Shown here piece by piece: positions 6,814 to 57,516 of a stretch of DNA of 64,000 nucleotides. Every line of letters begins with the position of its first letter. Position 1 is the stretch's first letter. A program made the translations under genes and the position numbers. The stretch covers positions 1-64,000 of the forward strand of contig NZ_VFPL01000001.1 in assembly GCF_006716645.1 (NCBI RefSeq), given 5' to 3'. The notes under the pieces were generated by a model that worked only from the letters and a program-made list of their open reading frames with translations, was not told the origin of the DNA and did not search any database. The DNA is from Arcticibacter tournemirensis (lineage in GTDB: Bacteria > Bacteroidota > Bacteroidia > Sphingobacteriales > Sphingobacteriaceae).

Positions 6814-6925
6814 GTTACAAGTTATATGCTTCAAGTTGTAAGCGGGAGGTAATATTATTAGTATCAGGTATTTAGTATCAAGTATCAAGAGATACGGGTT
6901 GTAAGTTGCGGGTTGTGAGTTGTGG
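6814..6925 (+). repeat. 112-bp degenerate tract with strict 7-bp period
   Basis: Sixteen consecutive heptamers fill the panD-panC gap: GTTACAA, GTTATAT, GCTTCAA, GTTGTAA, GCGGGAG, GTAATAT, TATTAGT, ATCAGGT, ATTTAGT, ATCAAGT, ATCAAGA, GATACGG, GTTGTAA, GTTGCGG, GTTGTGA, GTTGTGG. The word drifts along the tract (GTTxxxx, then ATCAAGT, then GTTGTGA) while the phase is kept. It begins 20 bp upstream of the panD start. No coding potential. Confidence 0.85.
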
Positions 6926-6965
6926 GAGGCAGTTAGCTTTCGGCGATCAGTTTACTGGACAAGTC

Positions 6966-7000
6966 CATAATTTATAACCCATAATTCATAACACAATAAG
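6966..7000 (+). repeat. 35-bp heptamer tract next to the panC stop
   Basis: Five heptamers CATAATT, TATAACC, CATAATT, CATAACA, CAATAAG end 7 bp before the panC stop codon. Same 7-bp period as the neighbouring tract but a different word. Confidence 0.75.
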
Positions 7001-17420: not shown

Positions 17421-19256
17421 ATGTGCGGAATTGTTGGATATATCGGCCATCGTGATGCATGGAGCATCATCGTTAAAGGCTTACACCGGTTAGAATACCG
17501 GGGATATGACAGTGCAGGCATTGCCTTATTAGACGGCAGCCTCAAAACTTATAAGAAAGCAGGAAAGGTAAGCGAACTTGAAGAGTTTGCTGCAGGAAAA
17601 GATAAAACTGGTACTATAGGCATGGGCCATACCCGTTGGGCGACCCATGGAGAACCTTCCGACCGGAATTCTCACCCTCACCAGTCAGGCGACGGAAGAC
17701 TTTCTATCATTCATAACGGCATCATTGAGAATTATGCTACCTTAAAAGAAGCTTTACAGGCCAAGGGACACGTTTTCAACAGTGATACGGATACAGAAAT
17801 TCTGGTACATCTGATTGAAGAGGTACAGAAGGCTGATAATCTTGACTTGGCAGAAGCGGTCAGGGTAGCATTAACAAAAGTTATCGGTGCCTACGCTATT
17901 GTTGTGATGAGCCAGGATGAGCCAGATCTGCTGATTGCTGCCAGAAAAGGAAGTCCTATGGTGATTGGAGTTGGTCAGAATGAATATTTCATAGCTTCAG
18001 ATGCGTCGCCGATAGTAGAATACACCAAAAACGTGATCTACCTGAAGGACAACCAGATTGCCGCAGTGTCAAGGGATGAAATTATTGTTAAGAGTATCGA
18101 TAATATCATTCAGACTCCGTCCATACAGGAACTGACGCTTAAGCTTGAAATGCTTGAAAAGGGCGGATTCGACCATTTTATGCTGAAAGAGATCTACGAG
18201 CAACCGCGTTCGATTAAAGATTGCATGAGAGGCCGCATCTATCCGAAAGAAGGAAAAGTACAGCTGGGCGGAATTAAGGACTATACCGAAAAGCTGAAAA
18301 ATATTGACCGCATTGTCATTATAGCCTGCGGAACTTCCTGGCATGCCGGCCTCGTAGGAGAATACCTGATAGAAGAATACGCAAGGGTTCCGGTTGAAGT
18401 AGAATATGCGTCAGAATTCCGTTACCGTAATCCCATTATCTCTGAAAAGGATCTTGTTATTGCTATCTCGCAGTCTGGTGAAACGGCCGATACAATGGCT
18501 GCTATTGAATTAGCGAAAGAAAAGGGAGCCACCATATTTGGTATCTGCAATGTAGTTGGCTCATCCATTCCCCGTATCACCCATGCCGGAGTCTATACCC
18601 ATGCAGGCCCTGAAATAGGCGTTGCTTCTACCAAGGCATTTACTGCACAGGTTACCGTGCTTACTCTTATGGCTTTATATATCGCACAACAGAGGGGCTC
18701 TATTCACCAGGGTGAGATGGTAAAGATGCTGACAGAGCTTGATGAGATCCCTTCGCTTGTTGAACAATGCCTTAAATCGAACGACACGGTTCTAGCCATA
18801 TCCGAAAAGTTAAAAGATTCAAGGAACTGCCTTTTCCTCGGAAGAGGAAGCGGGTTTCCCGTTGCGCTCGAAGGAGCCTTGAAGCTGAAAGAAATATCCT
18901 ATATACATGCCGAAGGTTATCCTGCGGCCGAAATGAAACACGGTCCGATAGCGCTGATCGACGAAGATATGCCTGTTATCTTTATTGCGACAAAGAATTC
19001 GTCGTATGAGAAAGTGATAAGCAATATCCAGGAAGTGAAGGCCCGTAAAGGGAAGGTTATCGCCATTGTTACCGAGGGCGATAAAGAGGTTAAGAAAATG
19101 GCTGATTATGTTATCGAAATACCAGACACTAACGAGGCTTATTTACCTCTTCTGGCAACTATCCCCTTACAGTTACTTTCATACCATATCGCCGTGCTAA
19201 GAGGCTGCAACGTAGACCAACCCAGAAATCTTGCTAAATCGGTGACGGTGGAGTAG
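17421..19256 (+). CDS. glmS: Glutamine--fructose-6-phosphate aminotransferase (isomerizing)
   Basis: The enzyme makes glucosamine 6-phosphate from fructose 6-phosphate and glutamine, the first step to UDP-GlcNAc. The 611 residues are full length. It has an N-terminal glutaminase with nucleophile Cys2 (MCGIVGYIG), HTRWATHGEPS and NGIIENY. Two SIS domains follow (CGTSWHAG, SQSGETADT, GRGSGFPVALEGALKLKE), and the C-terminus is LAKSVTVE. No glmS ribozyme-like structure was recognised in the 184-bp leader. Confidence 0.97.
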   Translation: MCGIVGYIGHRDAWSIIVKGLHRLEYRGYDSAGIALLDGSLKTYKKAGKVSELEEFAAGKDKTGTIGMGHTRWATHGEPSDRNSHPHQSGDGRLSIIHNGIIENYATLKEALQAKGHVFNSDTDTEILVHLIEEVQKADNLDLAEAVRVALTKVIGAYAIVVMSQDEPDLLIAARKGSPMVIGVGQNEYFIASDASPIVEYTKNVIYLKDNQIAAVSRDEIIVKSIDNIIQTPSIQELTLKLEMLEKGGFDHFMLKEIYEQPRSIKDCMRGRIYPKEGKVQLGGIKDYTEKLKNIDRIVIIACGTSWHAGLVGEYLIEEYARVPVEVEYASEFRYRNPIISEKDLVIAISQSGETADTMAAIELAKEKGATIFGICNVVGSSIPRITHAGVYTHAGPEIGVASTKAFTAQVTVLTLMALYIAQQRGSIHQGEMVKMLTELDEIPSLVEQCLKSNDTVLAISEKLKDSRNCLFLGRGSGFPVALEGALKLKEISYIHAEGYPAAEMKHGPIALIDEDMPVIFIATKNSSYEKVISNIQEVKARKGKVIAIVTEGDKEVKKMADYVIEIPDTNEAYLPLLATIPLQLLSYHIAVLRGCNVDQPRNLAKSVTVE

Positions 19257-19257
19257 A

Positions 19258-19341
19258 GATGTGGGTTGTGAGTTGAAGGTTGTGAGTTGTGGGGGCGAAA
19301 GGGATTGAAAGCTGAAAGGGAAAAGCAGAAATGTGAAAGCT
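19258..19341 (+). repeat. 84-bp heptamer tract downstream of glmS
   Basis: Twelve heptamers in phase: GATGTGG, GTTGTGA, GTTGAAG, GTTGTGA, GTTGTGG, GGGCGAA, AGGGATT, GAAAGCT, GAAAGGG, AAAAGCA, GAAATGT, GAAAGCT. It starts 1 bp after the glmS stop. The word changes from GTTGTGA to GAAAGCT midway while the 7-bp period holds. Confidence 0.85.
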
Positions 19342-19623: not shown

Positions 19624-20568
19624 ATGACACTTGTACAACTAGAATATATTGTGGCGGTCGATACCTATCGTAGTTTTGGTGTGGCCGCTGAGAAGTGCTT
19701 TGTTACACAGCCCACTTTGAGCATGCAGGTCCAGAAGCTCGAGGAAACATTAGGAGTAAAACTATTCGACAGAAGTAAGCAACCGGTTGTACCTACCGAT
19801 ATCGGGCAGGAAGTGATTGAACAGGCGCGTGTTGTTCTGGCCGAATCGTCAAACCTCGAAGAGATCATCAGTTCTTACAAAAAAGAACTCGCAGGTGAAC
19901 TTAAGGTTGGTGTTATTCCTACCGTTGCGCCCTACCTTCTTCCGAAGATTATTTTAAACTTTTCGGATAAGTACCCCAAGGTTCATATTCAGATCTGGGA
20001 ATATACAACAGACCAAATAGTCAAGAAATTAAAGACAGGGTTGCTTGATTGCGGCATACTTTCTACTCCTCTGGAAGATAAGAGCCTTACCGAAATTCCT
20101 CTGTTTTACGAGGATTTTGTTGCTTATACATCTCCTTTAAACAAACTGCTCGAAAAAAACGAGATTAAAGCCCGGGATATCAACCCCAGTGAACTCTGGC
20201 TGCTGAACGAAGGGCACTGTATGCGGAATCAGGTCCTGAACATCTGTACCCATCGGGAAATGGGCAATAAGCTGCGGGCTTTTGAGTACAATACCGGGAG
20301 TGTTGAAACGCTTAAAAGAATGGTAGACATTAATGCTGGTATCACGATCCTGCCAGAACTAAGCCTCACAGACTTTTCTGAAGAGCAGCTACAAAGGGTG
20401 AAGCGTTTCAGCAAACCTGTTCCTGCAAGGGAAATGAGCATTGTTACTCACCGTAACTTTCTAAAGAGGGGAATTATCACTGCTCTTGAAAAAGAAATTA
20501 TTGAATCGATACCTCAACATATGCTGAGCAGAAACAAAAAAGAAGTAATGGAAACTTCAATAAATTGA
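19624..20568 (+). CDS. oxyR: OxyR-type LysR-family peroxide regulator
   Basis: The protein has 314 residues. The N-terminal winged HTH (1-60) has CFVTQPTLSMQVQKLEETLG. The effector domain carries EGHCMRNQVLNIC with Cys199 and Cys208, the same numbers and spacing as the redox cysteine pair of E. coli OxyR. Hydrogen peroxide should oxidise them to a disulfide and switch DNA binding. It converges on a small lipoprotein and superoxide dismutase gene, fitting an oxidative-stress neighbourhood. The C-terminal tail is about 10 residues longer than in E. coli. Confidence 0.93.
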   Translation: MTLVQLEYIVAVDTYRSFGVAAEKCFVTQPTLSMQVQKLEETLGVKLFDRSKQPVVPTDIGQEVIEQARVVLAESSNLEEIISSYKKELAGELKVGVIPTVAPYLLPKIILNFSDKYPKVHIQIWEYTTDQIVKKLKTGLLDCGILSTPLEDKSLTEIPLFYEDFVAYTSPLNKLLEKNEIKARDINPSELWLLNEGHCMRNQVLNICTHREMGNKLRAFEYNTGSVETLKRMVDINAGITILPELSLTDFSEEQLQRVKRFSKPVPAREMSIVTHRNFLKRGIITALEKEIIESIPQHMLSRNKKEVMETSIN

Positions 20569-20601
20569 CAATGGACAATGGACGGTTGACAATGGACAGT
20601 T
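20567..20601 (+). repeat. Heptamer tract at the oxyR stop codon
   Basis: Five heptamers GACAATG, GACAATG, GACGGTT, GACAATG, GACAGTT start inside the oxyR stop codon and end 5 bp before the stop of the small convergent gene. Confidence 0.8.
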
Positions 20602-27135: not shown

Positions 27136-29952
27136 ATGCCAAAAGATTCTTCAATTAAATCAGTCCTGATCATTGGTTCAGGACCAATTATTATCGGCCA
27201 GGCCTGCGAATTTGACTATTCGGGCTCACAAGCTGCTCTGTCACTTAAAGAGGAAGGGATTGAAGTTTCTATCATCAATTCCAATCCGGCTACTATTATG
27301 ACGGATAAGGTGATTGCCGACCATGTTTATCTTCGTCCTTTAAATTGCCAAAGCATTGAAACAATCCTTCAGGAACAGAAGATTGACGCTGTTCTTCCTA
27401 CAATGGGGGGGCAAACGGCCCTGAACCTTTGCAAGGAGGCTGAGGAGCTGGGCATCTGGGAAAAGTATGGCGTAAAGGTGATCGGGGTCGACGTTGCGGC
27501 TATCGAGAAAACGGAAAACCGTGAGGAATTTCGCCAGCTGATGATCGATATTGGGGTAGGCATTGCGAACTCAAGAATCGCTAACTCCTTCCTTGAAGGA
27601 AAAGAAGCAGCACAGGAGATAGGATTCCCGCTTGTAATCCGTCCGTCTTACACCTTAGGTGGTACAGGCGGTGGTTTTGTTCACAAAAAAGAAGAGTTCG
27701 ATGCAGCGTTGAGCCGTGGACTGCAGGCTTCGCCTACGCATGAGGTGCTGGTAGAACAGGCCGTGCTTGGCTGGAAAGAGTTCGAGCTTGAACTTTTGCG
27801 CGACAATAAAGACAATGTTATTATCATTTGTTCTATTGAGAACTTCGATCCTATGGGGATCCATACTGGCGATTCCATTACGGTAGCGCCAGCAATGACG
27901 CTTAGTGACCGCTGTTATCAGGAGATGCGAAATCAGGCTATCAAAATGATGCGCGCTATCGGCAACTTTGCGGGAGGCTGTAATGTTCAGTTCTCTGTTA
28001 ACCCTGCCGACGAATCGATCATTGCTATTGAGATCAACCCCCGGGTATCTCGCTCGTCTGCCCTTGCATCGAAAGCAACGGGATATCCTATTGCCAAAAT
28101 AGCTGCTAAACTGGCTATCGGCTTCAATCTCGATGAAATTGAGAATCAAATCACCAAAACCACTTCTGCATATTTCGAACCTACACTCGACTATGTAATC
28201 GTTAAAGTTCCGCGCTGGAACTTTGATAAGTTTAAGGGTGCCAATAAAGAACTTGGCCTTCAGATGAAATCGGTAGGCGAGGTGATGGCAATAGGCCGTA
28301 CATTCATAGAAGCTCTTCAAAAAGCAACTCAAAGTCTCGAAATAGGCCGTGCGGGATTAGGGGCGGATGGCAGGCAGAATCGTAACCTTGAAGAAATAAT
28401 GCACGGGCTGGAGCATCCAACATGGAACCGCGTGTTCCTCATCAAAGATGCAATGAGTCTTGGTGTTCCGATCGAGTCGATACGCAAAGTAACAAGAATA
28501 GATAAATGGTTCCTTGTACAGATCCAGGAGCTGGTAATTCTAGAGCAGGAGCTTAAGCGTTATTCTCTGAATAACATCCCTAAAGACTTTTTCCTGACAC
28601 TGAAGCAAAAAGGTTTTTCAGACATACAGATAGCATGGCTCTTAGGTAATGTAACCGAAGATGAAGTATACGATCGGAGGAAAGAGCTCGGCATTAAACG
28701 GGTTTATAAGATGGTCGACACCTGCGCCGCTGAATTCCAGGCGCAAACTCCATACTATTACTCCACTTTCGAAGATGAGAACGAGTCGCAGGTAAGTGAT
28801 AAAAAGAAGATCATCGTGCTTGGCTCAGGGCCTAACCGGATCGGACAAGGTATAGAATTCGATTATTCCTGCGTTCATGGCTTACTTGCGGCAAAAGAAT
28901 CGGGTTACGAATCTATCATGATTAATTGTAACCCTGAAACAGTGTCAACAGACTTCAACATGGCTGATAAGCTGTATTTCGAGCCGGTTTTCTGGGAACA
29001 CGTAAGAGAGATCATCGAGCATGAAAAACCCGAAGGCGTGATCGTTCAGCTGGGTGGTCAGACAGCTCTAAAAATGGCTGAAAAGCTTCATGAAAAGGGT
29101 ATCAAGATCATCGGCACTACCTTCAATGATATGGACATTGCCGAGGACAGGGGTCGTTTTTCTGATCTGCTGAAAGATCTCGGCATTCCATACCCTAAAT
29201 ACGGTGTTGCCGAAAGTGCCGAAGAAGCTATTGAAGTGGCTCATCAGGTTGGCTACCCTGTGTTGGTAAGGCCTAGCTATGTCCTTGGAGGCCAGGGAAT
29301 GAGCATTGTAATAAATGATGACGACCTTGAAAAAGCAGTAGTTAAACTATTAGGCGACCTTCCTGGAAACCGCGTACTGATTGATCATTTCCTTGACCGG
29401 GCGGAAGAAGCCGAATCAGACTCTATCTGCGATGGTGAGGATGTTCATATTATTGGTTTAATGGAACACATAGAGCCTGCGGGAATACACTCCGGCGACT
29501 CCAGCGCTGTTCTGCCTCCGTTCAACCTGTCGGAAAACGTGATCCGCCAAATGGAGGAATATACAGTTAAACTCGCAAAGTCGTTAAACGTACGCGGTCT
29601 GCTCAATATCCAGTTTGCTATAAAGCAGGAAAAAGTATATGTTATTGAGGCAAATCCACGCGCTTCGAGAACAGTACCTTTCATTGCGAAAGCATATGAT
29701 GTTCCTTACATCAATATAGCTGCAAAGATCATGCTTGGAGTTAATAAACTTAAAGACTTCAACATCGAAAGGAAACTGGTAGGATATGCTATTAAAGAAC
29801 CGGTGTTCTCTTTCGATAAATTCCCTGATGTAGACAAACAACTGGGTCCGGAAATGAAATCTACCGGCGAAGCTATCCGCTTTATAACGGGGGTCGATGA
29901 TCCTTACTTTGTGAAGCTATACAAGGAAAAGTCGATGTACCTGAGTAAGTAG
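27136..29952 (+). CDS. carB: Carbamoyl-phosphate synthase large subunit
   Basis: The enzyme makes carbamoyl phosphate from bicarbonate, ammonia (from CarA) and two ATP, for arginine and pyrimidines. Its 938 residues lack the usual longer C-terminal MGS regulatory domain: it ends at ITGVDDPYFVKLYKEKSMYL, while typical CarB has about 1070. Both ATP-grasp halves are present (GSGPIIIGQACEFDYSG; GSGPNRIGQGIEFDYSC; SYTLGGTGGGF; SYVLGGQGMSI). carA is not in the window. It would feed ArgF' at 41467. Confidence 0.95.
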   Translation: MPKDSSIKSVLIIGSGPIIIGQACEFDYSGSQAALSLKEEGIEVSIINSNPATIMTDKVIADHVYLRPLNCQSIETILQEQKIDAVLPTMGGQTALNLCKEAEELGIWEKYGVKVIGVDVAAIEKTENREEFRQLMIDIGVGIANSRIANSFLEGKEAAQEIGFPLVIRPSYTLGGTGGGFVHKKEEFDAALSRGLQASPTHEVLVEQAVLGWKEFELELLRDNKDNVIIICSIENFDPMGIHTGDSITVAPAMTLSDRCYQEMRNQAIKMMRAIGNFAGGCNVQFSVNPADESIIAIEINPRVSRSSALASKATGYPIAKIAAKLAIGFNLDEIENQITKTTSAYFEPTLDYVIVKVPRWNFDKFKGANKELGLQMKSVGEVMAIGRTFIEALQKATQSLEIGRAGLGADGRQNRNLEEIMHGLEHPTWNRVFLIKDAMSLGVPIESIRKVTRIDKWFLVQIQELVILEQELKRYSLNNIPKDFFLTLKQKGFSDIQIAWLLGNVTEDEVYDRRKELGIKRVYKMVDTCAAEFQAQTPYYYSTFEDENESQVSDKKKIIVLGSGPNRIGQGIEFDYSCVHGLLAAKESGYESIMINCNPETVSTDFNMADKLYFEPVFWEHVREIIEHEKPEGVIVQLGGQTALKMAEKLHEKGIKIIGTTFNDMDIAEDRGRFSDLLKDLGIPYPKYGVAESAEEAIEVAHQVGYPVLVRPSYVLGGQGMSIVINDDDLEKAVVKLLGDLPGNRVLIDHFLDRAEEAESDSICDGEDVHIIGLMEHIEPAGIHSGDSSAVLPPFNLSENVIRQMEEYTVKLAKSLNVRGLLNIQFAIKQEKVYVIEANPRASRTVPFIAKAYDVPYINIAAKIMLGVNKLKDFNIERKLVGYAIKEPVFSFDKFPDVDKQLGPEMKSTGEAIRFITGVDDPYFVKLYKEKSMYLSK

Positions 29953-30027
29953 TTAAGAGTTAAATGTTTAGAGTTGAAAGTTAGAAGTGCAAAACTTTAT
30001 ACTTTCAACTCTAAACTCTCAACTCTT
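29951..30027. repeat. Heptamer tract forming a palindrome (carB/radA)
   Basis: Eleven heptamers begin at the carB stop: AGTTAAG, AGTTAAA, TGTTTAG, AGTTGAA, AGTTAGA, AGTGCAA, then AACTTTA, TACTTTC, AACTCTA, AACTCTC, AACTCTT. The second half is the reverse complement type of the first. A perfect 15-bp stem (29967-29981 with 30001-30015) results. It lies between the convergent carB and radA and may double as terminator. Confidence 0.85.
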
Positions 30028-30033
30028 TCAGCT

Positions 30034-31413
30034 TTACCCAAATAAACTCCCAAACACCTCCTCTATCTTTGATACACTTTTAATCTCGATTGTATATCGC
30101 GAAGTGTCAAGTCCCTTTTGGTTGTACTTAGAAATATAGATTTGTTCGAAGCCCAGTTTCTGTGCTTCAGCGATACGCTGCTCGATGCGATTTACCGCCC
30201 TTATTTCTCCCGACAAGCCTACTTCGGATGCAAAACAGATTTTAGAAGACACGGGAATGTCTTCATGAGATGAGATAATGGCAACAATAATACCCAGATC
30301 TACTGCTGGATCTTCTACTCTTAACCCTCCGGCAATATTCAGAAAGACATCTTTAGCACTTAACCGAAAACCACAACGCTTTTCGAGTACTGCAAGCAGC
30401 ATATTCATCCTTCTGGTATCAAAGCCTGTGGCAGAACGCTGAGGGGTACCATATGCAGATGAACTTACCAGGGCCTGGGTTTCGATGAGCATCGGCCTGG
30501 CGCCTTCAAGCATGGCCGATATTGTAATGCCACTCAGCTGCTCATCCCTTTGCGAAAGCAATATCTCCGAGGGGTTAGATACTTCACGTAAACCATTACC
30601 CTGCATCTCATAAATACCGAGTTCTGATGCCGATCCAAATCGATTCTTAACAGCGCGTAATATACGATATACATGATGCCTGTCGCCCTCAAACTGAAGA
30701 ACGGTATCCACCATATGCTCCAGTATTTTAGGTCCGGCAATAGCGCCATCTTTAGTAATGTGGCCAATTAAAAAAACGGGAGTGGAAGTTTCCTTAGCAA
30801 AACGCAGAAGCTCGGCGGTACATTCACGGACCTGCGATACGCTGCCGGGAGTTGATTCTATATGAGCAGAATATAGGGTCTGGATGGAGTCAACTATCAC
30901 AAGCTGCGGCTCAAGAGCTTCTATCTGTTTAAATATATTCTGAGTAGAGGTTTCTGTGAGTATATAGACATCGCCTCCTGCCGAACCAGACGACAGCCGC
31001 TCTGCGCGCATCTTTATCTGATGTTCGCTTTCTTCCCCAGAAACGTAAAGAACCCTTAAATTTGGCAGATTAAGGGTCAGTTGCAGCATCAGCGTCGATT
31101 TCCCTATGCCCGGCTCACCCCCTATTAATACCAGGGAGCCAGGAACGATTCCCCCGCCTAATACCCTGTTAAATTCACTATCAGGAGTAACAAGCCGGTT
31201 TTCTTCTGTATATACAATTTCATGTATCGCTGTAGGTCGTGTCACCCGGGAGCCTGAAGGACTGACTTTCCAGTCGGGAGCTGCATTTCCGGGCTTTTGA
31301 ATCACTTCTTCAACAAAGGTATTCCACTGGTTGCAGGAAGGGCATTTTCCAAGCCACTTCGCCGACTCATATCCACAGCTTTGGCAAAAATATGCTGATT
31401 TCGTCTTGGCCAA
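30034..31413 (-). CDS. radA: DNA repair protein RadA
   Basis: The protein has 459 residues. It is a RecA-like branch-migration ATPase in homologous recombination. It has an N-terminal C4 zinc finger (Cys10, 13, 24, 27; CPSCNQW), Walker A GGEPGIGKS, the RadA-specific KNRFG motif (VKNRFGSASELGIYEM), and a Lon-type C-terminal domain. It converges with carB, with the palindromic repeat tract between them. Confidence 0.96.
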   Translation of the reverse strand: MAKTKSAYFCQSCGYESAKWLGKCPSCNQWNTFVEEVIQKPGNAAPDWKVSPSGSRVTRPTAIHEIVYTEENRLVTPDSEFNRVLGGGIVPGSLVLIGGEPGIGKSTLMLQLTLNLPNLRVLYVSGEESEHQIKMRAERLSSGSAGGDVYILTETSTQNIFKQIEALEPQLVIVDSIQTLYSAHIESTPGSVSQVRECTAELLRFAKETSTPVFLIGHITKDGAIAGPKILEHMVDTVLQFEGDRHHVYRILRAVKNRFGSASELGIYEMQGNGLREVSNPSEILLSQRDEQLSGITISAMLEGARPMLIETQALVSSSAYGTPQRSATGFDTRRMNMLLAVLEKRCGFRLSAKDVFLNIAGGLRVEDPAVDLGIIVAIISSHEDIPVSSKICFASEVGLSGEIRAVNRIEQRIAEAQKLGFEQIYISKYNQKGLDTSRYTIEIKSVSKIEEVFGSLFG

Positions 31414-33112: not shown

Positions 33113-33213
33113 CAGCTACTCTTTTAATGGCGGATTATTCCACCGCCAGCGTACAACACCAGAAATGATTTATAACACAAGAACCCCCGGCCGCGTGTGC
33201 GTGGAGGTCTTTA

Positions 33214-33248
33214 AGTGATAAGTCATAAGTAATAAATACTAAGCGATA
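33214..33248 (+). repeat. Heptamer tract upstream of the RNase G gene
   Basis: Five heptamers AGTGATA, AGTCATA, AGTAATA, AATACTA, AGCGATA in the 188-bp gap between the RNase G start and the 29-codon gene. Confidence 0.7.
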
Positions 33249-38797: not shown

Positions 38798-39832
38798 ATG
38801 GAGAACGCACAATTAGTACCAGATCCTGCCGGTGCAGGGTTTGAGGGATTCAGGATAAGGGCGGGCATTGTTGGAGGAGCGGGGTATACGGGAGGTGAGC
38901 TACTGAGGATTTTGATTAATCATCCTTACGTAGACATAACGTTTATACATAGTAAAAGTAATGCCAACAACTTCATCCATGAAGTGCATGCTGATCTTTT
39001 AGGTGATACAAGTCTTAAATTTACCGATACCCTCAGCCAGGACATTGACGTCCTTTTCCTTTGTGTAGGCCATGGCGATGCCAGGAAGTTTCTGGATGCA
39101 AATGAAATAGAAGAACGTATTAAGATTATAGATTTAAGTCAGGACTTCCGCTTAACTACAAACCAAACGCATAAAGCTAAAAGCTTTATTTACGGTTTGC
39201 CAGAGCTGCAAAGAGAAGAGATCCGTACTGCTCGTAATATAGCAAATCCGGGCTGCTTCGCCACCTGTATTCAGCTGGCTTTGCTTCCCCTGGCCAAAGC
39301 GGGACTGCTTAACAAGGAGGTTCACATCTCGGCGACCACAGGATCTACGGGGGCGGGACAAAGTCTTTCTGCAACCTCGCATTTCAGTTGGAGAAATAAT
39401 AACGTCTCAGTATATAAAGCGTTCGGACATCAGCATCTTAAAGAAATAACAGAGTCACTCAATAGCCTAGGCTCCTTAATCAAAGCTGACGAGTTAAGTT
39501 TTATACCCTACCGCGGCGATTTCACACGAGGCATTATGGCATCCCTTTATACCGAATGTGACCTGAGCGGAGAAGAAGCTGAAAAGCTCTATACTGATTA
39601 CTATGCAGAGCATCCTTTTACCCATGTCTCTGCCAAAAATATCGATCTGAAGCAGGTTGTGAACACAAATAAATGCCTGCTGCACGTTGAAAAACACGGC
39701 AGCAAGCTGTTGATCCTGAGCATTGTGGACAACCTGCTTAAAGGAGCATCAGGGCAAGCAGTGCAAAATATGAATTTATTGTTCGGACTTGACGAAAAGG
39801 AGGGGCTACGGCTGAAGGCGACAGCGTTTTGA
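38798..39832 (+). CDS. argC: N-acyl-gamma-glutamyl-phosphate reductase
   Basis: The enzyme reduces N-acyl-glutamyl phosphate with NADPH. It has 344 residues. The nucleotide loop AGIVGGAGYTGGELLR begins only at residue 22, preceded by an unusual Pro/Gly-rich extension; no later ATG gives a better start. The catalytic Cys is in NPGCFATC, and the SATTGSTGAGQS and PYRGDFTRGIM motifs are typical. The stop is followed within 4 bp by a heptamer tract and the inserted four-helix-bundle gene. Confidence 0.95.
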   Translation: MENAQLVPDPAGAGFEGFRIRAGIVGGAGYTGGELLRILINHPYVDITFIHSKSNANNFIHEVHADLLGDTSLKFTDTLSQDIDVLFLCVGHGDARKFLDANEIEERIKIIDLSQDFRLTTNQTHKAKSFIYGLPELQREEIRTARNIANPGCFATCIQLALLPLAKAGLLNKEVHISATTGSTGAGQSLSATSHFSWRNNNVSVYKAFGHQHLKEITESLNSLGSLIKADELSFIPYRGDFTRGIMASLYTECDLSGEEAEKLYTDYYAEHPFTHVSAKNIDLKQVVNTNKCLLHVEKHGSKLLILSIVDNLLKGASGQAVQNMNLLFGLDEKEGLRLKATAF

Positions 39833-39835
39833 TGA

Positions 39836-39870
39836 AGTTGAAAGTAAAAGGTCAAAAGTTAAAAGACTTA
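39836..39870 (+). repeat. Left heptamer tract of the four-helix-bundle cassette
   Basis: Five heptamers AGTTGAA, AGTAAAA, GGTCAAA, AGTTAAA, AGACTTA; the last base is the A of the start codon at 39870. Its reverse complement resembles the right tract (40223-40250); AGTTGAAAGTA is shared. Confidence 0.8.
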
Positions 39871-40223
39871 TGCAGGACTATAAAGAGCTTAACGTTTGGA
39901 AGAAGTCACACCAGTTTGTGATTGAAATCTATAAGAATATAATCTCTTTTCCAAAAGAAGAAACTTTTAATCTTGTAAATCAATTAAAACGTGCTTCAGG
40001 CTCTATCCCTGCTAATATAGCTGAAGGTTGTGGCAGATATACGCAAAAGGATTTTGCATCATTCTTACAAAATGCGCTGGGCTCAGCACATGAAGTAGAA
40101 TATTTGCTTCTATTATCTAAGGACCTCAAGTTTATTTCCTCTGATCAGTACGAGCTGCTCAATGAGCAAATTTGTGAAATAAAAGCAATGTTAATTGCTC
40201 TTATTAAAAAAGTAAGACTTTAA
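39870..40223 (+). CDS. Four-helix-bundle protein (23S rRNA intervening-sequence type, S23)
   Basis: The protein has 117 residues and is all-helical. It matches the IVS/S23 family: MQDYKELNVWKKSHQFVIEI, FNLVNQLKRASGSIPANIAE, GSAHEVEYLLLLSKDLKFI. Members were first seen inside intervening sequences of 23S rRNA genes and are now known as free genes in many Bacteroidetes; the function is unknown. Here it interrupts the arginine operon between argC and argD and is bracketed exactly by inverted 7-bp-repeat tracts. It has no catalytic transposase residues. Confidence 0.9.
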   Translation: MQDYKELNVWKKSHQFVIEIYKNIISFPKEETFNLVNQLKRASGSIPANIAEGCGRYTQKDFASFLQNALGSAHEVEYLLLLSKDLKFISSDQYELLNEQICEIKAMLIALIKKVRL

Positions 40224-40250
40224 ACTTTCTACTTTCAACTCTTAACTCAA
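40223..40250 (+). repeat. Right heptamer tract of the four-helix-bundle cassette
   Basis: Four heptamers AACTTTC, TACTTTC, AACTCTT, AACTCAA run from the stop codon of the helical-bundle gene to the base before the argD ATG. They are complementary in type to the left tract. Confidence 0.8.
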
Positions 40251-41384
40251 ATGAAATTATTCGACGTTTATCCGCTTAACCCAATAGAAATCACAAAAGG
40301 CCAGGGAAGCCTGGTATGGGACAATAAAGGACAGGAGTATCTTGATCTGTATGGAGGGCATGCTGTTATTTCCATCGGACATACTCATCCGCACTATGTT
40401 CAGCGGCTTACAGATCAGCTGCACAAGATTGGGTTTTATTCTAATTCGGTAGAGATACCTCTGCAATCTCAGCTGGCGGAATTACTTGGTAAAGTATCAG
40501 GGAAGGCTGATAACCAACTTTTCCTATGTAATTCGGGAGCAGAAGCAAACGAAAATGCGCTAAAGCTTGCTTCGTTTTACAACGGAAGGAAGAAGGTTAT
40601 CGCCTTTAAGGGTGCTTTTCATGGCCGTACCTCATTAGCTGTATCCTGTACAGATAATCCTAAAATAGTAGCTCCTGTTAACCAGACTGAAAACATCATC
40701 TTTTTGCCTCATAATGATGAAACTGCGTTGGAAAGGATATTTTCTGAATCTGGAAATGAAATATCGGCAGTAATTATCGAGGGGATACAGGGTGTTGGAG
40801 GTATCAGGGTCGCCACTGAAAGCTTTCTTCAGAAATTACGTTCGCTTTGTGATCAGTATAATGCGGTTTATATTGCCGACTCCGTGCAATGCGGATACGG
40901 CCGGTCGGGAAAATTCTACTCCCATGACTTTGCCGGCGTAGAGGCCGATATTTACACCATGGCTAAAGGAATGGGAAACGGCTTCCCTGTGGCAGGGATT
41001 TCTATTGCGCCTAAATTCAAGCCGTGGCACGGAATGCTGGGAACTACTTTTGGCGGAAACCATCTCGCCTGCGCTGCTGCTGTAGCTGTCCTCGAAGTTA
41101 TTGAGAATGACAAGCTGATGGAAAATGCCCGGACTATCGGCTCCTATCTTATTGAAGAATTAAGCAAGCTTGATAAAATTTGCGAAGTTCGCGGAAGAGG
41201 ACTGATGATAGGGATTGATCTTCCCGAGGAACTCTCTCATGTAAAAAAAGATCTGTTATTCAAACACCATATTTTTACCGGCGAGTCGAAGCCGAACGTG
41301 CTCCGACTACTTCCGGCATTAAATTTAAAAAGGGAGCATGCCGACAGGTTCCTTGACGCCCTTAACAAAACGTTGAATCAGTAA
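40251..41384 (+). CDS. argD: N-acyl-ornithine aminotransferase
   Basis: A PLP enzyme of 377 residues that converts N-acyl-glutamate semialdehyde to N-acyl-ornithine. It has class III aminotransferase features: LYGGHAVISIGHTHPHYV, FCNSGAEANE-like LCNSGAEANENALK, AFHGRTSLAVS, VIIEGIQGVGG and the PLP lysine in MAKGMGNGFPVAG. Its start codon directly follows the repeat tract, so the tract forms its entire upstream region. Confidence 0.94.
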   Translation: MKLFDVYPLNPIEITKGQGSLVWDNKGQEYLDLYGGHAVISIGHTHPHYVQRLTDQLHKIGFYSNSVEIPLQSQLAELLGKVSGKADNQLFLCNSGAEANENALKLASFYNGRKKVIAFKGAFHGRTSLAVSCTDNPKIVAPVNQTENIIFLPHNDETALERIFSESGNEISAVIIEGIQGVGGIRVATESFLQKLRSLCDQYNAVYIADSVQCGYGRSGKFYSHDFAGVEADIYTMAKGMGNGFPVAGISIAPKFKPWHGMLGTTFGGNHLACAAAVAVLEVIENDKLMENARTIGSYLIEELSKLDKICEVRGRGLMIGIDLPEELSHVKKDLLFKHHIFTGESKPNVLRLLPALNLKREHADRFLDALNKTLNQ

Positions 41385-47232: not shown

Positions 47233-48489
47233 ATGAGCGTTTCACGTCTGGCAAAAAATTTAAAAGGTTCTGAAATTATTAAGATCGCAGGAGAGATTAA
47301 TGAGTTAAAAAAGCAGGGGCAAAAAATTGCAAATCTAACGATCGGCGATTTTGACTCAACGATATTTCCAATACCTTCCGAGCTAAAAGAAGGTATAAAA
47401 AAAGCATACGACGAATATCAAACCAATTATCCGCCTGCCGACGGAATACCTGCGCTCAGGGAGAGCGTAAGCCTCTTTTTGAAAAACCGGTATTCATTAA
47501 CTATCGACACAAAGGAAATTCAGATTTCAAGCGGCTCGAGGCCATTGATTTATGCAACGTATCTTGCACTGGTTGACCCGGGAGATAAAGTAATATATCC
47601 GGCGCCTTCCTGGAATAATAACCATTATTGTGATCTTACCGGTGCGGAAGGTGTTGCTGTTGCTACCACCGCTGAAAATAATTTCATGCCTACGGCAGAC
47701 GACCTGCGGCCTCATATAAGCGACGCCACCCTGCTGGCACTTTGTTCGCCCCTAAACCCAACAGGAACGATGTTCTCAAAAAACGACCTTGAGGGTATCT
47801 GCGACCTTGTACTGGAGGAGAACAAAAGAAGAGGCACCGATCAGAAACCACTTTATATCCTTTACGACCAGATCTATTCGATGCTTACTTTCGGTAAGCA
47901 CGAACACTATAATCCGGTTACGTTACGCCCTGAAATCAAGGACTATGTCATTTACATTGATGGTGCCTCAAAATGCTTCGCGTCAACCGGCGTAAGGGTT
48001 GGATGGGGATTCGGTCCTGAAAAGGTGATAGACAAAATGCGAACAGTGATCATGCACATGGGTGCCTGGGCGCCTAAGCCCGAACAGGTTGCAATGGCTG
48101 CTTTCATCAGGGATAACACTGCAGTTGATAATTATCTTTCTGCATTCAAACAGAGAATTCAGGAAAGCCTCACAACGCTTTATGATTCATTTAAGCAGCT
48201 TAAGGCTGAAGGCTTTAATGTCGATGCCATAGAACCTATGGGCGCTATTTATCTGACTGTTAAGATTGATTATACTGGAAAAACAACGCCGGATGGACGC
48301 CTGCTAAAAAACAGTGATGATATTAACTTCTACCTGATAAACGAAGCAAAAGCGGCCTTTGTGCCATTTTCTGCGTTCGGAACGGACAATTCAGTAAACT
48401 GGTTCAGGGCCTCCGTAGGAGGTTGCTCACTTGAAGATATAAAAAGTATGCTGCCCAGGATTAAAGAGGCGCTAACGAAATTGAGTTAA
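47233..48489 (+). CDS. PLP-dependent aminotransferase, class I/II
   Basis: The protein has 418 residues and is of the aspartate-aminotransferase-like fold I type. Motifs: NYPPADGIPALRESVSLF, SSGSRPLIYATYLALVDPGD, SPLNPTGTMFS, YDQIYSMLTF, DGASKCFASTGVRVGWGFG (PLP lysine). Aspartate for ArgG would be a sensible product, but the substrate is not determined by sequence. It follows argH after 53 bp on the same strand and probably closes the operon, before a palindromic repeat tract. Confidence 0.88.
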   Translation: MSVSRLAKNLKGSEIIKIAGEINELKKQGQKIANLTIGDFDSTIFPIPSELKEGIKKAYDEYQTNYPPADGIPALRESVSLFLKNRYSLTIDTKEIQISSGSRPLIYATYLALVDPGDKVIYPAPSWNNNHYCDLTGAEGVAVATTAENNFMPTADDLRPHISDATLLALCSPLNPTGTMFSKNDLEGICDLVLEENKRRGTDQKPLYILYDQIYSMLTFGKHEHYNPVTLRPEIKDYVIYIDGASKCFASTGVRVGWGFGPEKVIDKMRTVIMHMGAWAPKPEQVAMAAFIRDNTAVDNYLSAFKQRIQESLTTLYDSFKQLKAEGFNVDAIEPMGAIYLTVKIDYTGKTTPDGRLLKNSDDINFYLINEAKAAFVPFSAFGTDNSVNWFRASVGGCSLEDIKSMLPRIKEALTKLS

Positions 48490-48494
48490 GTATT

Positions 48495-48578
48495 GAGAGT
48501 TGAAAGTTTAGAGTTGAAAGTTAAAGGTTTAAAGTAACTTTGAACCCTCAACTTTCAACTTTGAACCCTCAACTTTCA
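48495..48578. repeat. 84-bp heptamer palindrome between the arginine cluster and the LUD gene
   Basis: Twelve heptamers: GAGAGTT, GAAAGTT, TAGAGTT, GAAAGTT, AAAGGTT, TAAAGTA, then ACTTTGA, ACCCTCA, ACTTTCA, ACTTTGA, ACCCTCA, ACTTTCA. The right half is the reverse complement of the left with about 7 differences in 38. It contains no gene and fills the gap between two convergent genes. Confidence 0.88.
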
Positions 48579-57453: not shown

Positions 57454-57516
57454 TTCTTGATACTTGTATCTTGATTCTTGACACTTGATTGCACGTTAAT
57501 TCTTGATTCTTAATTC
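57454..57516 (+). repeat. 63-bp heptamer tract between rimM and trmD
   Basis: Nine heptamers TTCTTGA, TACTTGT, ATCTTGA, TTCTTGA, CACTTGA, TTGCACG, TTAATTC, TTGATTC, TTAATTC end about 20 bp before the trmD start. Confidence 0.82.

Follow-up and report, generated by a model that had tools for sequence, protein, structure and literature searches.

S23 four-helix-bundle genes framed by inverted heptamer tracts form a probable mobile stem-loop cassette without a transposase

The small S23 gene that lies between argC and argD in Arcticibacter tournemirensis, together with the two 7-nt repeat tracts that frame it, probably constitutes a single mobile stem-loop cassette of ~420 bp, devoid of a transposase. 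Comparison of loci showed that the cassette is either complete or missing altogether and that it is found at different places, with its arms and its protein staying matched. S23 is, to our knowledge, a very common gene family without known function. The occurrence of the same gene-in-hairpin unit in many operons of bacteria and some archaea points, as far as sequence comparison reaches, to a class of mobile DNA that has been overlooked.

The window, i.e. the whole stretch analysed (the first 64,000 nt of contig NZ_VFPL01000001.1), carries the cassette with the following parts.

38798-39832, + strand: argC, upstream host gene ending in TGA (ORF list; used as protein query)
about 39835-39865, + strand: left heptamer tract AAGTTGA AAGTAAA AGGTCAA AAGTTAA AAG (TRF period 7, 4.4 copies; lag-7 scan)
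39836-39860, + strand: left stem arm, 11+5+6 bp (RNA fold)
39870-40223, + strand: S23 / four-helix-bundle gene, 117 aa (PF05635 and TIGR02436 profiles)
about 40212-40247, + strand: right heptamer tract ACTTTAA ACTTTCT ACTTTCA ACTCTTA ACTC (TRF period 7; lag-7 scan)
40216-40240, + strand: right stem arm (RNA fold)
40251-41384, + strand: argD, downstream host gene (ORF list)

All three genes run in one direction, and the right tract is the inverted complement of the left. The left tract starts 3 nt after the argC stop and ends a few nucleotides before the S23 ATG, while the right tract begins within the last S23 codons and ends 3-4 nt short of the argD ATG. A sequence-only reading of this stretch had given the tract limits correctly to within a few bases, its statements that the right tract starts at the stop codon and ends one base before the ATG being slightly off. 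Self-similarity at lag 7, and at its multiple 14, stood well above that at other lags in the window, in keeping with STRR-type repeats, i.e. tandem degenerate 7-nt units in spacers. Profile searches assigned the gene to the S23 / four helix bundle family (131 bits to PF05635; 131.8 bits to TIGR02436, curated cut-off 24), with 2gsc and 2rld as PDB relatives. NCBIfam returned four-helix-bundle families only for the cassette protein, and its match to the Avd protein of diversity-generating retroelements, whose fold is homologous to that of S23, was weak (32.4 bits, below the curated cut-off of 80). The cassette encodes no transposase, as the earlier reading had stated, its coding strand holding a single 117-aa ORF, which sets it apart from insertion sequences, and defence-system models gave no match to it.

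Folding of positions 39833-40250 predicted a 22-bp stem built from both tracts with the S23 gene in the loop, pairing 39836-39846 with 40230-40240, 39848-39852 with 40224-40228, and 39855-39860 with 40216-40221. The predicted energy of −100.1 kcal/mol (z = −3.03) was equalled by none of 100 shuffles, and the two arms folded alone gave z = −4.50. Sequence, TRF and predicted fold together confirmed what had been read from the letters, that the S23 gene sits between two mutually pairing 7-nt tracts and that the RNA would form a stem with the gene in its loop.

To compare filled and empty junctions, we used the five genomes of the same genus with a detected argC. The cassette is present between argC and argD in two of them (G000 and G001), and in the other three the argC-argD spacer contains neither tract nor gene, measuring about 10 nt in G002 and G005 and about 50 nt in G003; the S23 gene and both tracts are therefore gained or lost together. 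These empty sites, and the recurrence of the unit at many other junctions, support the earlier proposal of a mobile unit. The check suggested with it, whether every S23 gene of the genome has inverted tracts, gave such tracts for two of the three PF05635 genes, namely the window locus and a cassette at a metF junction (C2:297446) built on a different heptamer, GTATCAA. The third (L003 / L121, G000:C1:4189520), a divergent gene in an ABC-transporter operon, has no clear inverted arms.

S23 genes were detected in 240 of 301 genomes of the family Sphingobacteriaceae and in 90 of 118 sampled Bacteroidota genomes. We collected 80 family loci of 20 kb each, 81 with the window, and scored 120-nt flanks as tract-bearing at a lag-7 self-similarity of at least 16/24, using 964 other, mechanically defined ORFs of the same loci as controls. 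Tracts occurred upstream of 75% and downstream of 54% of the 81 S23 genes, compared with 6.4% and 7.1% of control ORFs, and on both flanks of 43% versus 0.7%; these loci are best-scoring matches, and those at recurrent sites are non-independent, which representative and permutation tests handle only partly. When lags 4-14 were compared in S23 flanks, none stood out except 7 and, as its multiple, 14. The left arm matched its own right arm with a mean local score of 16.8, against 9.75 for the arms of other S23 loci and 9.0 for control ORFs. With 25 representatives sharing <55% protein identity, own-arm pairing scored 17.7 against 9.0, and none of 10,000 permutations exceeded 12.5. Arm complementarity was weak in 16 of the 81 loci, and many arms pair imperfectly. 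S23 was co-directional with the genes on either side in 74 of 81 loci versus 754 of 1238 background triplets (p = 4e-9), which is consistent with expression of S23 from the host operon.

A wider scan of 84,980 species genomes yielded 80 named loci, and the 75 named S23 loci, from ~15 phyla and including one archaeon, showed the same trend in architecture as the family loci. Flanking tracts in other family members, on which the proposal of a mobile unit had been staked, were present in most. The architecture was seen in the Bacteroidota groups Flavobacteriaceae, Saprospiraceae and Bacteroidales, and also in Chloroflexota, Acidobacteriota, Planctomycetota, Verrucomicrobiota, Nitrospinota, Thermodesulfobacteriota and candidate-phylum bacteria. 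For the 35 loci outside Bacteroidota, tracts lay upstream in 74%, downstream in 43% and on both sides in 37% (controls 10, 10 and 2.6%), and for the 40 named Bacteroidota loci the corresponding figures were 50, 42 and 35% (controls 7, 6 and 0.7%). Another 28 loci, drawn from other families of Bacteroidota, followed the same trend, with an arm score of at least 14 in 61%. Enrichment extended to an 8-nt period, particularly in Bacteroidota (17% of flanks), and some S23 lineages therefore use octamers. Loci L201, L276, L273, L287, L165 and L155 have arms of 8-nt instead of 7-nt period, and locus L144, from the metagenome-assembled genome of a Methanophagales archaeon, carries an S23 gene with inverted GGGAATA-type heptamer tracts. 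Four genomes (G139, G245, G292 and G030) hold 14-18 S23 matches each, several of them interrupted by stops or frameshifts, as mobile elements in decay would be.

The heptamer differs from locus to locus (GTTGAAA in the window; elsewhere GTATCAA, GAGATTT, TAGTATT, GTTTTAA, AAAGCTT, AAGGTTG and others). At the argC-argD junction at least four types occur among species, and several types each were found at the fadB-fadA and metH-metF junctions, the genes at such recurrent junctions having been named by reading their translations. Heptamer and protein were compared among loci with good hairpins, those with no common genes in their neighbourhoods being taken as unlinked. When the S23 proteins of unlinked loci shared at least 65% identity, the arms matched in 85-96% of 64 pairs, compared with 5-10% at 35-55% identity (label permutation p = 0.0002). 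At linked sites, common arms were found in none of 55 pairs with 35-45% S23 identity. Only a few relocations underlie the high-identity unlinked pairs, the main ones linking the fad operon with an sdh-like junction and argC-argD with the L063 site; further relocations connect neighbouring junctions of one operon, so that some of the "different sites" adjoin. DNA homology between sites does not extend beyond the cassette: for most pairs it sets in within the left arm, ~70-100 nt 5' of the S23 start codon, and it ends between the stop-codon region and the right arm. Related cassettes occupy adjacent junctions of one operon at L107, L110, L115 and L241 (fad) and at L049 and L231 (arg), which suggests local spread besides distant moves. 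Co-inheritance of the linked gene and arms explains the match between protein and heptamer without binding. The S23 protein is under strong purifying selection, with dN/dS of 0.02-0.15 in nine related pairs; between the window gene and its G001 ortholog (L006), dS is saturated and changes at codon positions 1, 2 and 3 number 19, 13 and 60.

Heptamer tracts also occur apart from S23 genes, and the window contains seven of them.

29946-30034, no strand assigned: GTTGAAA-family heptamer hairpin without a gene, flanked by convergent genes (score 21 to the window cassette arm)
48484-48578, no strand assigned: GTTGAAA-family heptamer hairpin without a gene, flanked by convergent genes (score 18 to the window cassette arm)
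6858-6890 (tract region to 6992), no strand assigned: solo GTATCAA tract (TRF, lag-7 scan; score 23 to the arms of L119)
57454-57516, no strand assigned: solo GTATCAA tract, written TTGATAC (TRF; score 25 to the arms of L119)
19256-19341, 20559-20601 and 33207-33248: other S23-free 7-nt tracts (TRF)

Four of the seven match the arms of one or other of the genome's two arm-bearing S23 cassettes, GTATCAA being the heptamer of the second cassette. The tracts at 6858-6992, 19256-19341, 20559-20601 and 33207-33248 belong to the families GTATCAA, GTTGTGA, GACAATG and AAGTAAT, and in some spacers two or three heptamer families lie side by side. In this genome, with its three S23 genes, a search for three GTATCAA units gave 194 overlapping matches and one for the GTTGAAA type gave 163, the genome-wide tract census being a sample. 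In many cases solo tracts pair into short-looped hairpins, gene-free loops from 5 nt upward being common. At locus L310 one hairpin is nested in another: GTTG-type and TTATGAG-type tracts precede their complements, whose order is inverted, as though an element had been inserted into the loop of a second one. GTATCAA-type arrays were present in 27 of 90 S23-positive versus 1 of 28 S23-free Bacteroidota genomes (p = 0.004, by statistics that ignore species relatedness). In random regions, tracts numbered 7 in 398 kb of S23-positive and 2 in 378 kb of S23-free genomes (1.8 versus 0.5 per 100 kb, p = 0.10); a contrast of 5.5 versus about 0.5 per 100 kb, taken near S23 loci, was discarded as overstated by comparison with these unselected regions.

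Such an abundance of gene-free copies raises the question of whether the hairpin itself moves, in the manner of a REP or MITE, by slippage, template switching or a host enzyme, with S23 as a passenger in its loop. The dozens of GTATCAA and GTTGAAA tracts beside three S23 genes, the short-looped gene-free hairpins and the nested hairpin of L310 are what such an element could leave behind, but most S23 loci have matched arms in every sampled phylum, the S23 protein predicts the identity of the heptamer, one heptamer family is largely restricted to S23-positive genomes, and the gene is strongly constrained, so that we consider a mere passenger unlikely. The arms might instead be cis-regulatory: like TRAP or a ribosomal protein, S23 would bind its own message at the stem, and the whole would pass vertically within operons. 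This would accommodate the strong co-direction with host genes, the position of the left arm directly 5' of the start codon in many loci, the retention of cassettes at fad, arg and met junctions across many species, and a tract length near five units alongside a pentameric relative. It fits poorly with the empty junctions of congeneric genomes, with the recurrence of related cassettes in unlinked neighbourhoods and of unrelated ones at a single site, and with the gene-free copies found elsewhere, and we judge purely regulatory arms rather improbable. That the tracts are ordinary slippage-prone repeats of any spacer, associated with S23 by chance, is rejected by the controls and scarcely credible: 7-nt tracts do occur in other spacers of the same genomes, and among repeats of 5-11 nt heptamers are reported to be the most frequent class in many genomes (PMC4679880), but tracts are ten-fold enriched at S23 genes over same-locus control ORFs, the arms match each other and not those of other loci, and heptamer and protein are correlated.

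Among known systems, the mobile cassette most invites comparison with the intervening sequences (IVSs) of 23S rRNA in Coxiella and Leptospira, which likewise have an S23 family gene in the loop, complementary borders forming a stem (supported in the cassette by folds and arm statistics) and sporadic presence. IVSs sit in rRNA helices, whereas the window cassette lies between the protein-coding genes argC and argD, and a scan for conserved rRNA motifs found none in any fetched S23 locus. The cassette differs further in that both its arms are heptamer arrays, the heptamer differing by S23 lineage. The Coxiella IVS is excised by RNase III and has 2-3 tandem GACAGAT heptamers just before the S23 ATG, their number varying between strains (PMC4990558). 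These heptamers suggest that rRNA elements and operon cassettes form one class, with the IVSs of rRNA as a probable special case; these would thereby be placed within a far wider class of elements that also resides inside metabolic operons. Apart from this strain variation in Coxiella, we found no link between S23 and heptamers in the open-access literature.

RAYT genes are flanked by inverted REPs. The cassette is similar in associating an inverted-repeat-flanked gene with hairpin repeats that also exist in many solo, gene-free copies. RAYT, however, is an HUH endonuclease, whereas the cassette encodes only S23, a small four-helix bundle for which we know of no catalytic site, and thus no HUH/Y1 transposase of the TnpA-REP type; REP is a fixed palindrome, whereas the cassette repeats are tandem heptamers. 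RAYT genes and REP/REPIN repeat families co-evolve (PMC8266576). Degenerate 7-nt units resembling those of the cassette base pair into a hairpin in the P6b element of the Nostoc tRNA-Leu intron (PMC3488679), and TAACTGA heptanucleotide arrays occur in Bacteroidetes (PMC4679880), with no S23 gene or protein-specific heptamer linked to either in the papers found. Spacer heptamer repeats, previously reported without explanation, are now tied to S23, and S23 gains a likely ligand, its own heptamer array.

Movement of the cassette is deduced solely from comparison, since we identified neither a transposase or reverse transcriptase nor a target-site duplication. We propose an element with a stem of 4-6 heptamers per side whose loop carries the translated S23 gene. 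S23 may recognise its own heptamer array as single-stranded nucleic acid, with roughly one heptamer per subunit, and could thereby tag the hairpin so that host or trans-acting machinery copies or inserts it, as with RAYT and REP; candidate engines would be a replication-fork hairpin copied by host polymerases or a trans-acting enzyme. Insertion between co-transcribed genes would be harmless and would allow S23 to be expressed, and, as with rRNA intervening sequences, the argCD mRNA would either be cleaved by RNase III at the stem or tolerate it. A more far-reaching version, in which S23 proteins are heptamer-reading pentamer rings that drive transposase-free stem-loop spread with host enzymes only across bacteria and archaea, with rRNA IVSs as one outlet and many as yet unexplained bacterial heptamer repeats as debris, is offered tentatively as a possibility that we would not yet favour. 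Counted in units, left tracts most often number 5 (41 of about 106 tracts) and right ones 5-6, and an S23 relative from Xanthomonas is described as a homopentameric ring in work known to us through its citation in PMC4990558; because tract length centres on five and this relative is homopentameric, one heptamer per subunit of a pentamer is possible. Comparison of the two halves of the heptamer revealed a weak preference for one contiguous half (p = 0.014).
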